NCBI GenBank assembly: GCA_949283975.1
Contig: CASDUK010000003.1
Span: 62,001 to 126,000, forward strand
Length of the DNA stretch: 64,000 nucleotides
Direction: 5' to 3'
Source: an uncultured Bacillota bacterium
GTDB lineage: Bacteria; Bacillota; Clostridia; Christensenellales; UBA1242
Positions 26,978-61,633 of this stretch are shown here, piece by piece. A model generated the notes under the pieces. That model was given only the letters and a program-made list of their open reading frames with translations. It had not been told where the DNA came from and searched no databases. The position numbers were made by a program, and so were the translations under genes. How positions within the stretch are numbered: the first letter of the stretch is position 1; every line of letters starts with the position of its first letter.

Positions 26978-29032
26978 ATGGAAATCAAAAGAAAAAGAAT
27001 AATTTTAACAATTTTTTGTTTATTTTTTGTTTTATGCGCAGCGCTTTTGTTTTGCGCCTGTTCGCCCAGGGGTGAACAACCCTCCGCCGACCCGGGTTTC
27101 CAAGAGGAAATCCCACAAAATCCAAGCGAAGAAGATGAACCAGATATGCCAGAAAACCCGAGCGGAAGCGAAGACCAAGGTGAAAGCGAAAAGCCGGGCG
27201 AAGATGAAAACCTAGGAGAAAGCGAAGACCCGGGCGAAGTTGAAAACCCAGGCGGAAGCGAAAAGCCGAGCGAAGATGAAAACCCAGGCGAAAGCGAAGA
27301 CCCGGGCGAAGTTGAAAACCCAGGCGGAAGCGAAAAGCCGAGCGAAGATGAAAACCCAGGCGAAAGCGAAGACCCAGGTGATGACGGAAACCCAGGAGAA
27401 ATTGAAAAACCAGGCGAAGTTGAAGACCCAGGCGAAGACGAAGAACCGGGAGATGACGAAACTCAAAATCCGCCAGAAGAAGACAAGCCAATCGGCTCAG
27501 ATAAACCAGCAGAGGAAGACCCCTTGCCCGAAGAGCAGCCAGAGATTATTTATGAAAAAGAAGAAACAATTTCTCTTGCAAACAACGGCATAGGCTTTGT
27601 TCTAGAGCCCTTTTTAGACGGAGATTTTTTGTTTATAGTCGAAAACGAAGAGGTTGCAACTGCTCTGCCCTACTTTGAAAGCGCAATTACGCTTTATCCG
27701 GTTTCGGTTGGAGAAACGAAATTAACAGTTAAAATTTCAACCGAAGAAAAAATTTGGATTAAAGTTTATAACATAATTGTTCTTCCTTTTGACAAAAATT
27801 TAAACATTGAAATTGAAGGCTTGGAAGAAAATGAACTTAAAGGTGGAACAAGGGCGGATGGAAGCTATTTACTTTACAATGCAAGTGTAGTTTCTTGTCG
27901 AAATTTGGCGACTGAGGATTTTTTTATAGAAAAATCTGATAATATCATTATCGTGGAAAATTCAATTGTTTCATCTAAAACGGAAAATGGCGGAACGAAA
28001 CTTTCGTTTTCTTTCTATGTTTTGGGCGGACAAGAGGCAAACATTAAAGTTTATTTTGAAAATAATTTTGCAAACCTTTTAGCGCCAACCGAAGCCCAAG
28101 AAACATTTGTTGTTTCTGAATTTTTAAAAGAAATTTCATATGAGTTGACAAACGAAGGAATTTCCCCAATTAAAGGGGAGAACGGTTTTAAGTTATATCT
28201 TCCAACAATTGGTTTTGAGGACGAAATGGACGGGGCTGGCTATTTCACATATTACAATTTGACAATAGACAAAGCGCTCTTTTCTGTTTCAACAATGTCA
28301 TCAAACATTGAAATTATTGAAAATGAAGAAGGGTTTGTAATTTGCTCAAAGGAAGAAGGAACGGCGCTTGTTGTAATTTCGGCAAACGACGGCTCTAACC
28401 TAACAGAAAATTTTATTATTGAAACCGCCCCGCTCCTTGCAACAGAATATGTTGTTTCTATGGGCGGAGAAGAAACCATTTTCACGCCAGAAGACTTTTG
28501 TTATTATTTGCTTGGGCTAGAATCTTTTGAAATGAGCAAAGATGGAGACCCCTTTGTTTTGCAAATTTTACAAAACCCAATTTACAGCAAGACAGAATAT
28601 CAAATTGTTGTTGCAAGCGGAAGTTCTGTTAAGTTGATTTATGAGCCGGTTGGCGGAGTTGCGAAATTATCCTTTGTTCCTGTTGAAAAGGGAAAAACAG
28701 ATTTTAACATTCTTTACAACGGCAAAACAATTTCATCTTTCACGGTTGAGGTTAAAGAGAAAGAATATGAAATTTTAATAGAAAACATTGAAGATGAAAA
28801 CGAAATAAAAGTTGGAAGTTTTATTGAACTTAATTTATCTCTAACCCGTAATGGAGTTGAGATTATTAGGGCGCAGTTTGAAATAATTTGCAATCAAAGC
28901 GGCGTTATTTTTGACAATTTTGCATATAACGGAACGGCTTTTATTGAGTTTCAAAAACCAGGCGACTTTTATTTTACCATTACAGCAAGCGATTATGGCG
29001 TTAGTCGAACCATAAAATTTATTGTTGTCTAA
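26978..29032 (+). CDS. surface lipoprotein with acidic Pro/Gly/Glu repeat and Ig-like beta domains
   Basis: The 684 residues start with a lipoprotein signal (LLFCAC, lipidated Cys at about residue 28). Residues about 35-190 are a highly acidic low-complexity spacer built of units such as GESEDPGEV and PGGSEKPSEDEN, including an exact 24-residue tandem repeat. The rest (190-684) is beta-rich without a named family: repeated segments such as PVSVGETKLTVKIS, ENEIKVGSFIELNLSLTRNG resemble bacterial Ig-like surface domains. The spacer probably holds the domains away from the membrane (inference). There is no ribosome binding site; mnmE follows 9 nt after the stop, so readthrough into mnmE is possible. 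Confidence 0.7.
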   Translation: MEIKRKRIILTIFCLFFVLCAALLFCACSPRGEQPSADPGFQEEIPQNPSEEDEPDMPENPSGSEDQGESEKPGEDENLGESEDPGEVENPGGSEKPSEDENPGESEDPGEVENPGGSEKPSEDENPGESEDPGDDGNPGEIEKPGEVEDPGEDEEPGDDETQNPPEEDKPIGSDKPAEEDPLPEEQPEIIYEKEETISLANNGIGFVLEPFLDGDFLFIVENEEVATALPYFESAITLYPVSVGETKLTVKISTEEKIWIKVYNIIVLPFDKNLNIEIEGLEENELKGGTRADGSYLLYNASVVSCRNLATEDFFIEKSDNIIIVENSIVSSKTENGGTKLSFSFYVLGGQEANIKVYFENNFANLLAPTEAQETFVVSEFLKEISYELTNEGISPIKGENGFKLYLPTIGFEDEMDGAGYFTYYNLTIDKALFSVSTMSSNIEIIENEEGFVICSKEEGTALVVISANDGSNLTENFIIETAPLLATEYVVSMGGEETIFTPEDFCYYLLGLESFEMSKDGDPFVLQILQNPIYSKTEYQIVVASGSSVKLIYEPVGGVAKLSFVPVEKGKTDFNILYNGKTISSFTVEVKEKEYEILIENIEDENEIKVGSFIELNLSLTRNGVEIIRAQFEIICNQSGVIFDNFAYNGTAFIEFQKPGDFYFTITASDYGVSRTIKFIVV
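27231..27374 (+). repeat. 72-bp exact tandem repeat in lipoprotein spacer
   Basis: Two 72-bp units (27231-27302 and 27303-27374) are identical or nearly so and keep the reading frame (24 residues each). Degenerate relatives continue on both sides. Such in-frame repeats usually vary in copy number between strains. Confidence 0.8.
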
Positions 29033-37331: not shown

Positions 37332-37348
37332 AATATAATTAGTTTTTA

Positions 37349-37378
37349 AACAAGAAGGGTTTCCTTCTTGTTTTTTTT
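37349..37378 (+). terminator. terminator of ftsH
   Basis: AACAAGAAGG (37349-37358) pairs with CCTTCTTGTT (37363-37372), loop GTTT, then a T8 run. Confidence 0.9.
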
Positions 37379-37505: not shown

Positions 37506-37534
37506 TTGACAGGGGGGGGGGGGGGTAGTACAAT
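37506..37534 (+). promoter_or_regulatory. promoter with 14-G spacer, candidate phase-variable switch
   Basis: TTGACA (37506-37511, perfect consensus) and TACAAT (37529-37534) are separated by exactly 17 bp, of which the first 14 are an unbroken run of G (37512-37525). Slippage of such a run would change the spacer and thus promoter strength. The first gene downstream is the LRR surface protein at 37898, after a leader of about 360 nt. Confidence 0.7.
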
Positions 37535-37590
37535 AAGTATGTAAAACCGCGAAAAGTTTTTTTGGTGGAAACGCCCTTTGGCGGTCGTAA

Positions 37591-37777
37591 GCGAGGCTAA
37601 CCCCTTAGGTTGGTTTTAAGGTTTTTAAACTCCAAAGCGGAAAGCAATTTGCTTTGGCTAAACAGAAGAGAAAAACCTTGGCTTTAGCCGGGCGAGGCTA
37701 AACCTCTTAGGTTGGTTTTGGGTTTTTAAATCTTAAAGCGGAAAGCAATTTGCTTTGCCTAAAAGCGGAGAGAAACC
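37591..37777 (+). repeat. two ~85-bp direct repeats in the LRR gene leader
   Basis: Copies at about 37591-37675 and 37692-37777 (101-bp period) share GCGAGGCTAA, CTTAGGTTGGTTTT, GGTTTTTAAA and a perfect hairpin AAAGCAATTTGCTTT. A nearly inverted copy of the first 10 bases (TAGGCTCGCC, 37797-37806) can pair with GGCGAGGCTA at 37691-37700. The leader transcript would be strongly structured. Confidence 0.65.
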
Positions 37778-37822
37778 TAAAAAAAAGAAAAAAAATAGGC
37801 TCGCCTAGCCAAAAAACGCTTG

Positions 37823-37840
37823 TTTACGGGTAACCGTCAA
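37823..37840. promoter_or_regulatory. palindromic operator-like site upstream of LRR gene
   Basis: TTTACGGGTAACCGTCAA is an imperfect palindrome that matches the complement of a site at 60739-60758 upstream of the Spo0A-like gene in 16 of 18 positions (TTTACGGATAACCGTAAA). A TAAAAT -10-like box follows at 37862-37867 without a good -35, so the site would be centred near -42 of that promoter, an activator position (inference). Confidence 0.4.
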
Positions 37841-37897
37841 TATGTTTTAAATAAATAGTGGTAAAATACAAAATATAAAAGGAAGGGAGAAAAAATT

Positions 37898-40150
37898 ATG
37901 AGCCTAAAAATAAAAATTTCAATTCTTGCAATTTGCTTTGCGCTTCTTGCCGCCGTTTGCGTTGGCTTTGCCTTTGCCGCTCCAAGCGAAAAATTAAACT
38001 TAAAGGGAACTTTAAGTTATGAGGTTGCAAAGGCAACAATTTCGGTTTCGCCAAATATTTCAACTTTGGGTTCAACAACCGGCTCTGGCTCAACAACCGG
38101 CTCTAGCTCGGGAACTGGTTCTGGCGAATACGCAATTGGCGAAACGATAACCCTAACCGCAACGCCGTCCGGCTCTAATAGTAGCTTCCTCGCTTGGGCA
38201 ACTTCAACAGACCCAAACGAAATGGAAATTCTCTCAATTTCTCCAACATATTCCTTTAAGCTCTCAAAAGATTCCCCAACAACTTACTTTGCTCTCTTTA
38301 ACGAAACAACATCAGAGCAAACAGTTGGGGAGTTAAAATACACAATCTATGAAGATGCAGAATTTGCAGCAGTAACGGACACAACTTCAACAGAGCTTTC
38401 AAGCGCTGAAATTCTTCCTGAAGTTCAAAATGAAAACAACTCTTACAAAGTTTTCTTAGTTGGCAGTTCTGCTTTCCGTAGTTGCAGCTGGTTAACCTCA
38501 ATTACAATCCCAGAAGGAATAAGGGTAATTGGCGAGGAGGCTTTTTATGTTTGCAGCCGTTTAACCTCGGTGTCTCTTCCAAGCACATTAACAGAAATTG
38601 GCGAACGGGCTTTTGCCGCAACTGGCTTAACTTCAATAATAATTCCAGATGGGGTTACTTCAATTGGCAGTTCTGCGTTCGAATTCTGCGGAGATTTAAC
38701 CTCAGTTTCAATCCCAGAAGGCGTAACCTCAATTGGCGATAGGGCTTTCTATTATTGCAGAAGGTTAACCTCAGTAACTCTTCCAACCACATTGACATCA
38801 ATTGGCAATTATGCGTTCGAATACTGCGAAGATTTAACCTCAGTTTCAATTCCAGAAGGAATTAGGGTAATTGGCAATTCTGCTTTCTCTCATTGCAGCA
38901 GTTTAACCTCGGTGTCTCTTCCAAGCACATTAACAGAAATTGGCAATCGGGCTTTCCAAAATTGCTACAGCTTAACCTCAATAACGATTCCAGGAGGCGT
39001 AACCGAAATTGGTGAGTATGCTTTCGTCCAATGCAGCGGTTTAACCGAAATTACAATCCAAGAGGGAATGACAGAAATTGGTTATTCTGTCTTCCAAGCT
39101 TGCAGCAGTTTAACCTCTGTAACACTGCCAAACACGTTAACTTCAATTGACATATGGGCTTTCGCCCAATGCAGTAGTTTAACCGAAATTACAATTCCAG
39201 AGGGCGTAACCAAAATTGGCGAATGGGCTTTTTATAGTTGCTACAATTTAGCTTCGGTAAACCTTCCAAAAACGTTAACCTCAATTGGATATTTGGCTTT
39301 TTCTTCTTGCGTCAGTTTAACCGAAATTACAATTCCAGAGGGCGTAACCGAAATTGGCACAGGGGCTGTCGGTGCCTTTGTTGAAGCTGGCGCTTTCTCT
39401 GGATGCTATGCGCTGGTTATAGTGTATAACAATTCAAGTTTAAATATAACGGCAGGTTCTACTGAAAATGGTTGTGTTGGACTTTATGCAAAGGAAATTG
39501 TAAAAAAAGGGGGAACTCTACAGGGAAAAATCGAAATTGACGGAGGCGTTCAATATTATGTAAACGGAGCAGCAAATATTGCCCTTGGGCCTTTAGGTTT
39601 TAGAGGTTCTCTAACAAGCGTAAAAATTAGAAACGAGGCAACTGAAATAAGGCCAGGAGCTTTCGCTTTCTGCAGCAATTTAACCTCAATTACAATCCCA
39701 GAAGGAATAACTTCAATTGGCGATGATACCTTCAACAGTTGCACCAGTTTAACCGAAATTAAAATCCCAGAAAGTGTAACCTCAATTGGCGCGGGTGCTT
39801 TCTCTGCTTGCTATAATTTAAGTTCAATAACGATCCCAGAAAAAGTAACAAAAATTGACACTTTTGCTTTCGCGAATTGCGACAATTTAACTTCAATTAC
39901 GATTGACGGAAATATTGCAAGTTTGGAGTCTGATGCTTTTTATAATTGCGACAAGTTAACTTCGTTAACGCTGGGAAAAGATGTTTCAACCCTTCCAAGC
40001 AATCTGTTTGACGCGTTAACACACCTAACCGAAATTGAAGTTCTTGGGAGTTTAAATTCAACAACTTTCCCAAGCGGAACTTGGTATAAGGACGGAGAGG
40101 AAGTTACAAGTTTTGACGGCGAGGGAACTTACACAAGGACGGATGTTTAG
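37898..40150 (+). CDS. BspA-type leucine-rich-repeat surface protein
   Basis: The 750 residues start with a signal peptide (IKISILAICFALLAAVCVGF). A Ser/Thr/Gly-rich linker (GSTTGSGSTTGSSSGTGS) and a short beta domain (GETITLTATPSGSNSSFLAW) precede about 20 BspA/LRR_5 repeats of 23 residues with the pattern ITIPEGVTSIGDRAFYYC. Such repeats occur in host-adhesion and fibronectin-binding proteins of oral and gut bacteria and in Trichomonas. No LPXTG, membrane anchor or other wall-binding module is visible at the C-terminus, so the way it is retained is unclear. The start has a GGAAGGGAG site. The upstream poly-G promoter suggests on/off switching. Confidence 0.9.
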   Translation: MSLKIKISILAICFALLAAVCVGFAFAAPSEKLNLKGTLSYEVAKATISVSPNISTLGSTTGSGSTTGSSSGTGSGEYAIGETITLTATPSGSNSSFLAWATSTDPNEMEILSISPTYSFKLSKDSPTTYFALFNETTSEQTVGELKYTIYEDAEFAAVTDTTSTELSSAEILPEVQNENNSYKVFLVGSSAFRSCSWLTSITIPEGIRVIGEEAFYVCSRLTSVSLPSTLTEIGERAFAATGLTSIIIPDGVTSIGSSAFEFCGDLTSVSIPEGVTSIGDRAFYYCRRLTSVTLPTTLTSIGNYAFEYCEDLTSVSIPEGIRVIGNSAFSHCSSLTSVSLPSTLTEIGNRAFQNCYSLTSITIPGGVTEIGEYAFVQCSGLTEITIQEGMTEIGYSVFQACSSLTSVTLPNTLTSIDIWAFAQCSSLTEITIPEGVTKIGEWAFYSCYNLASVNLPKTLTSIGYLAFSSCVSLTEITIPEGVTEIGTGAVGAFVEAGAFSGCYALVIVYNNSSLNITAGSTENGCVGLYAKEIVKKGGTLQGKIEIDGGVQYYVNGAANIALGPLGFRGSLTSVKIRNEATEIRPGAFAFCSNLTSITIPEGITSIGDDTFNSCTSLTEIKIPESVTSIGAGAFSACYNLSSITIPEKVTKIDTFAFANCDNLTSITIDGNIASLESDAFYNCDKLTSLTLGKDVSTLPSNLFDALTHLTEIEVLGSLNSTTFPSGTWYKDGEEVTSFDGEGTYTRTDV

Positions 40151-60738: not shown

Positions 60739-60773
60739 CTTTACGGTTATCCGTAAAGATTTTATCGACAAAA
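60739..60773. promoter_or_regulatory. palindrome and Spo0A-like box upstream of the Spo0A-like gene
   Basis: The perfect palindrome CTTTACGGTTATCCGTAAAG (60739-60758) resembles the site at 37823-37840 before the LRR gene. Directly beside it, minus strand TTTTGTCGAT (60764-60773) is one mismatch from an 0A box. Between it and the gene at 60908 several TTGTAAAA/TTTTACAA sites occur (60792, 60817, 60836, 60868). Confidence 0.45.
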
Positions 60774-60907: not shown

Positions 60908-61633
60908 ATGTGTAAAAGCGCAGTTTTGTTTTCTAAAAGAGATTATTCGCTTGGCGAGGCTCTTCGCTTAATTTGCAGAAATGAAAAGGTGAATTTAATT
61001 TATTGCCTAACCTTTCCAGAACTTTTAAACAATGTTATCAATTCAAATCCAGAGATAATTTTTTATGATGCCGAATCATATGAATTTCCATATAACATAT
61101 ATAGGGAATTTAAAGAAACAAACATCTTCTATATCCCAAAGGTTGTTGTTTTAACAAACAGCCCAGAGAAATATAAATATGGAGACGAAAACCTTATTTT
61201 TGTAGATAAAAGGAATTTTTCTGATCAGATTGCGGCAATGCTCTCCAAAACAAAGGAGAGAGAGGCAAAGGCAATAGATCCAGAAAAAATTGAATGCGTC
61301 AAAAGCAAAACAACAAAACTGCTTTCAGAAATTGGAATAACAACAAAATATTTGGGCTATGAGTATATCAGAGAGCTGGTTGTAATTGTCTATAAGGACA
61401 AAAGGCTTTTGCAATCCTTTAACAAAAAGGTTTATCCAAAACTTGCAATGCGCTACAACACCCAAGTTAACAATGTTGAAAGGAACATAAGAAATGCAAT
61501 AACCGTTGCCTCCCAGCGAAGCAAAAACAAAATTGTTTTTGACGAGATAAGCGGAAGGGGAACGCTAAACGATGCTGGTCCAGTTCCAAGCAACAAACAA
61601 TTTATAACCTGGCTTTTGGATAAGGTTAGTTAA
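60908..61633 (+). CDS. Spo0A-like transcription regulator with divergent receiver domain
   Basis: The C-terminal part (about 130-238) matches the Spo0A effector domain: LLSEIGITTKYLGYEYIREL, LYP-like KVYPKLAMRYNT, VNNVERNIRNAITVA and the final PSNKQFITWLLDKV. Spo0A is the master regulator of sporulation. The N-terminal 110 residues form a receiver-like fold; Asp54 (IIFYDAE), Thr83 and Lys101 fit the phosphorylation site, but the usual acidic pair is reduced to SKRD (Asp12). Phosphorylation is therefore plausible but not certain. A clear AAGGAGAAG site precedes the ATG. Its upstream region carries an 0A-like box, suggesting autoregulation. Confidence 0.85.
   Translation: MCKSAVLFSKRDYSLGEALRLICRNEKVNLIYCLTFPELLNNVINSNPEIIFYDAESYEFPYNIYREFKETNIFYIPKVVVLTNSPEKYKYGDENLIFVDKRNFSDQIAAMLSKTKEREAKAIDPEKIECVKSKTTKLLSEIGITTKYLGYEYIRELVVIVYKDKRLLQSFNKKVYPKLAMRYNTQVNNVERNIRNAITVASQRSKNKIVFDEISGRGTLNDAGPVPSNKQFITWLLDKVS

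Follow-up and report, generated by a model that had tools for sequence, protein, structure and literature searches.

A poly-G promoter spacer before a secreted LRR protein gene, a predicted phase-variation switch in an uncultured Clostridia lineage

What does an unbroken run of 14 G residues do between the two recognition elements of a promoter, in DNA that is AT-rich? The question arises at a locus of an uncultured Clostridia genome, within a stretch of 64,000 nucleotides (the window; GC content, 36.3%). On the forward strand, the promoter P1 comprises a −35 element, TTGACA (37506–37511), a G14 tract that is the predicted slippage site (37512–37525), the trinucleotide TAG (37526–37528) and a −10 element, TACAAT (37529–37534). 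The initial annotation gave the spacer between TTGACA and TACAAT as exactly 17 bp, including the unbroken G14, and all coordinates matched when they were re-read. It also called the run exceptional, and this holds: the tract is the longest run of G or C in the window, the next longest being 7, and the 9 matches to G7 in the window are more than were found in any of 100 dinucleotide shuffles. P1 scores 11 out of 12 in a promoter scan, making it the top sigma-70-type match of the region, and its −10 element is invariant in nine aligned TACAAT-type cassettes. By its sequence, P1 is a sigma-A-type promoter with a spacer that is almost wholly poly-G; at G14 it can reasonably be predicted to be ON. 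A computed terminator-like hairpin 3′ of the upstream ftsH-like gene (37348–37373, forward strand) divides that gene from the gene downstream of P1, which therefore probably needs a promoter of its own.

The downstream gene (37898–40150, forward strand) encodes a secreted LRR protein of 750 amino acids. Its assignment to the BspA type, made earlier from the sequence alone, was borne out by the LRR_5 profile (PF13306; E = 2.7e-163; 535 bits against a Pfam cut-off of 27.7); a match to an InlB-B-like family is weak and under the family cut-off. The signal peptide, as read from the sequence, ends in GFAFA-APSEKLNL with a cleavage-like site at AFA-AP, and the protein is very probably exported. The description ‘surface protein’ stands in part: the signal peptide and the BspA-type repeats point to export, no wall-anchor motif was seen by eye, and a surface location is likely. 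Elsewhere in the window, a lipoprotein-like open reading frame (26978–29032) contains a low-complexity GESEDPGEVENPGGSEKPSEDENP repeat region.

The locus is one of several. In the 893-kb genome (7 contigs), we found nine TTGACA-polyG cassettes, each in front of a gene of one secreted-protein family; 13 genes have the same type of leader, and 9 of these carry their own cassette. Measured to the homologous −10 element, the spacers are 17 nt long at the window site (G14), at C4:33188 (reverse strand, G14) and at C1:42983 (forward, G6AG6, −10 element TAGGAT); 15 nt at C3:199247 (forward, G12); 11 nt at C3:45693 (reverse, G8) and C3:129769 (forward, AG7); 10 nt at C2:56662 (reverse, GGGTG6); 20 nt at C2:2372 (reverse, ATGA plus G13); and 28 nt at C2:182277 (reverse, G6AG17, −10 element TAGGAT). 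By spacing alone, three of the nine are predicted to be active. BspA LRR proteins are encoded at three cassettes, and the products at the other six have no match to any Pfam family. A search of the whole genome for runs of at least nine Gs, with no promoter required, returned only six tracts, five of which sit in spacers between TTGACA and a −10 element, upstream of genes for secreted proteins. The remaining one, an in-frame G10, is in another large secreted LRR gene (G000:C3:158031-158040; L033:6032-6041), where gain or loss of one base would truncate the protein, a candidate for translational phase variation. The initial annotation did not include this set of loci, the G10 in coding sequence or a proximal element at 37823–37867 (see below).

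Across cassettes, the tract appears to be the part that changes fast. In an alignment of the cassettes, little or no variation is seen in the −35 element, the −10 element and much of an A/T-rich block upstream, whereas tract lengths run from G7 to G14; across homologous cassettes they reach G17. The window cassette and a cassette of a same-genus genome (G004) are identical at 36 of 36 upstream and 19 of 20 downstream bases, whereas their tracts are G14 and G7, respectively. A genome of another genus (G203) has two cassettes that match at 81 of 81 flanking bases but carry G10 in one and G11 in the other, as well as a further group of cassettes with tracts of G10, G11 and G12. At a locus judged orthologous by its upstream sequence, G6AG17 at C2:182277 corresponds to G7AAG6 at C7:4178 of G004. 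With one genome per species, all of these tract-length differences are between paralogues and species rather than within a population. A search of G004 for at least nine Gs found no tract. For the nearest G004 cassette, the stretch examined contains no ftsH relative; we therefore rejected synteny with the ftsH locus, and this seems to be the same cassette located elsewhere.

The arrangement extends beyond the genus. TTGACA-G7 followed within 25 nt by TANNNT occurs in 8 of 309 genomes of the family, representing 6 genera, and, in a sample of 396 genomes of the order, 9 have the G9 form; a reversed control pattern gave zero matches in both sets, and, as these scans required TTGACA, its association with poly-G was tested only by this control and by the searches for at least nine Gs. 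The same layout has different flanks in different genera, suggesting that it either arose more than once or has diverged fast. By a crude hydrophobicity rule, and counting paralogous sites that are not independent, the first downstream gene encodes a hydrophobic N-terminal segment at 34 of 36 scorable sites, compared with 16 of 45 open reading frames of the window; poly-G promoters thus appear to be placed almost exclusively at exported-protein genes. In G203, 10 of the 16 tracts of at least nine Gs are TTGACA-polyG promoters and others lie in coding sequence, including one in an acyltransferase gene. Another G203 locus (L125:1063-1982) holds a Caps_synth gene in two frames, matching profile positions 6–128 and 126–278 on either side of a G9 run; its arrangement resembles that of a phase-variable capsule gene switched out of frame, a typical contingency locus. 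The longest tract that we saw is at locus L106 of genome G672, TTGACA-G23-TACAAT, in which the spacer consists wholly of 23 Gs.

Other collections were also scanned. The pattern scan of viral contigs returned no matches. Two matches in the scan of genome contigs are a same-genus relative (CALWHN01 records), and another, in Clostridiales NALB_7813_23 (JAMPAF010000003.1; L069:4921-4955), reads TTGACA-G12-TAGACGAGTAG-TACAAT before a lipoprotein-like gene and looks like a genuine poly-G promoter. A further match, L068, has a G9 run and may be either a promoter or a chance match; the G runs of L066, L070 and L071 are short and look like chance, and we set these three aside.

We conclude that the promoter spacer is highly likely to undergo slipped-strand phase variation that controls the secreted LRR gene. 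Phase variation was the reading proposed at the outset, and it is strengthened by the nine cassettes, by variable tracts within conserved flanks, by the association with exported proteins, by the empty reversed control and by tract changes, both across species and within genomes, that leave the flanks unchanged or almost so. Replication slippage would add or remove Gs in the P1 spacer, shifting the −35 and −10 elements into or out of the 16–18 bp spacing that RNA polymerase accepts, and transcription of the LRR gene would then switch heritably and reversibly. Switching within a population, a promoter activity particular to each tract length and a selective advantage are predictions of this reading. 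Given the multiple related poly-G promoters at secreted-protein genes, P1 very probably belongs to a group of switches that turn parts of the cell exterior on and off at random; with a separate tract at each of nine cassettes, cells would differ in their combinations of secreted proteins. In meningococci, homopolymers of at least 8 nt were mostly variable on resequencing (PMC5084427). On this basis, G14 would be expected to be unstable, and several cassettes with short or interrupted tracts (G7–G8, GGGTG6, G6AG6) may be nearly frozen. Loss of mutS, a mutator background that could be a source of instability, was ruled out: the gene is intact (PF01624 present; open frame of 880 amino acids) and implies no raised slippage rate.

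Between P1 and the gene lies a second promoter-like element. The predicted P1 start would give a leader of about 357 nt (37541–37897, forward strand) whose predicted fold is more stable than that of shuffled controls (z = −2.8); by eye, it contains a unit of roughly 110 nt in two imperfect copies, and an Rfam scan of it gave sub-threshold matches only. Its proximal part holds P2 (37823–37867, forward strand), TTTACGG-N4-CCGTCAA-N21-TAAAAT with TGG before the −10, recognized by recurrence of its dyad: TTTACGG-N4-CCG occurs 12 times in the genome, and 8 of these occurrences are at genes of the secreted-leader family. The dyad is also upstream of a gene at C2:85683 that, by eye, encodes an HTH-type regulator. 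In the window, a perfect 18-bp palindrome, TTTACGGTTATCCGTAAA (60740–60757), consists of P2-dyad half-sites and lies upstream of a Spo0A_C-domain gene (60908–61633). The presence of these half-sites at the eight leader-family genes, the HTH-type regulator gene and the Spo0A_C-domain gene suggests a shared regulon. Class II activators bind near −42, and if TAAAAT is the −10 element, the P2 dyad would fall near that position. P2, a common proximal element, may therefore add basal or regulated expression of the LRR gene that is independent of P1. ‘OFF’ at P1 may then mean ‘low’, and the transcript that P1 switches may come in addition to a regulated one. In genes of the MGTKLK type and in the G203 genes, the poly-G promoter is near the ATG and there is no P2 dyad, so that the switch would be more nearly all-or-none.

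P2 also invites a different account of the locus, in which P2 and its regulator mainly drive the gene and the spacer is static, the tract differences being neutral drift in a relic promoter. A P2-like element is kept at eight family genes, one of which, C2:134726, has lost its poly-G cassette and retains the P2 region, and several cassettes have short or interrupted tracts, all of which fit this account. However, a relic would not have kept TTGACA, TACAAT and the flanking block; the same layout is found in several genera whose flanks differ; and the MGTKLK-type and G203 genes have a near-ATG poly-G promoter and no P2 dyad. We consider a static spacer improbable.

The tract could instead act through its own structure (a G-quadruplex, stiff A-like DNA or a bound protein) rather than through spacing. 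G14 is long enough for quadruplex-like structures, and the G strand is the coding strand at every promoter site; against this, the tract is always between −35 and −10, a position at which sigma-A must be sensitive to length itself, and an interrupted tract, G6AG6, exists with a 17-nt spacer, so that we regard a structural role of this kind as very unlikely. An artefact of assembly or sequencing has almost no probability. Homopolymer lengths are prone to error and the assembly comprises 7 contigs, but nine sites and a separately assembled relative (CALWHN01) have the same promoter context each time, with the reversed control at zero; exact lengths may still be off by one or two. Slippage that changes the spacing of P1 remains our preferred reading.

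Simple-repeat phase variation has been studied mainly in Gram-negative pathogens and mycoplasmas, and is best known from Neisseria and mycoplasmas. In the Vlp system, each gene of an exported-protein family has its own homopolymer promoter switch, and expression is combinatorial. The family described here is similar in that several genes each have their own predicted independent switch (9 of 13, with spacers of 10–28 nt), but Vlp tracts are poly-A in adjoining genes, whereas these are poly-G at dispersed loci whose products have mostly non-lipoprotein signal peptides. Contingency genes of the Campylobacter type carry poly-G tracts inside genes for exterior structures and switch by frame; they resemble only the side loci (Caps_synth of G203 and C3:158031), not spacer switching. 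The Vlp system of Mycoplasma hyorhinis is cited in two reviews (PMC3899988, PMC11868660). The spacer-length mechanism itself is established for porA and hifA/hifB (PMC3899988). Neisseria meningitidis porA has a poly-G run between −35 and −10 (van der Ende 1995, as given in PMC3899988), and, as in the layout of P1, the run is in the spacer; in porA, transcription of an exterior protein is set by the length of this run. However, porA is a single gene of a Gram-negative pathogen, whereas here, in a Clostridia lineage, there are nine cassettes at dispersed loci, some of them accompanied by a proximal element. Haemophilus influenzae hifA/hifB has a promoter with TA repeats, the number of which alters the −35/−10 spacing (PMC3899988); unlike the poly-G cassettes, it combines a dinucleotide repeat with a bidirectional promoter of fimbrial genes. 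Clostridioides difficile has invertible promoters, and the Clostridia cases in one review use DNA inversion (PMC11868660); these share promoter-level phase variation in Clostridia, but the switch is recombinase inversion, not homopolymer slippage.

The kind of mechanism is thus already known, and its multi-locus use in an uncultured Clostridia lineage is apparently unreported: we found nothing on poly-G phase variation in Clostridia or Christensenellales in the open-licence PMC literature. We give about an even chance to a wider reading, in which these loci constitute an undescribed poly-G phasome in uncultured Clostridia, with a cassette spread between subfamilies of secreted-protein genes, a slippage-driven distal promoter combined with a regulated proximal one (dyad TTTACGG-N4-CCG), and coding poly-G switches, so that bacteria of a commensal type would vary their exterior combinatorially. 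The nine cassettes are also a compact natural spacer series, from 10 to 28 bp, in which the −35 and −10 elements are nearly unchanged. If the reading is true, small-genome uncultured Clostridia would also bet-hedge their exterior by slippage.
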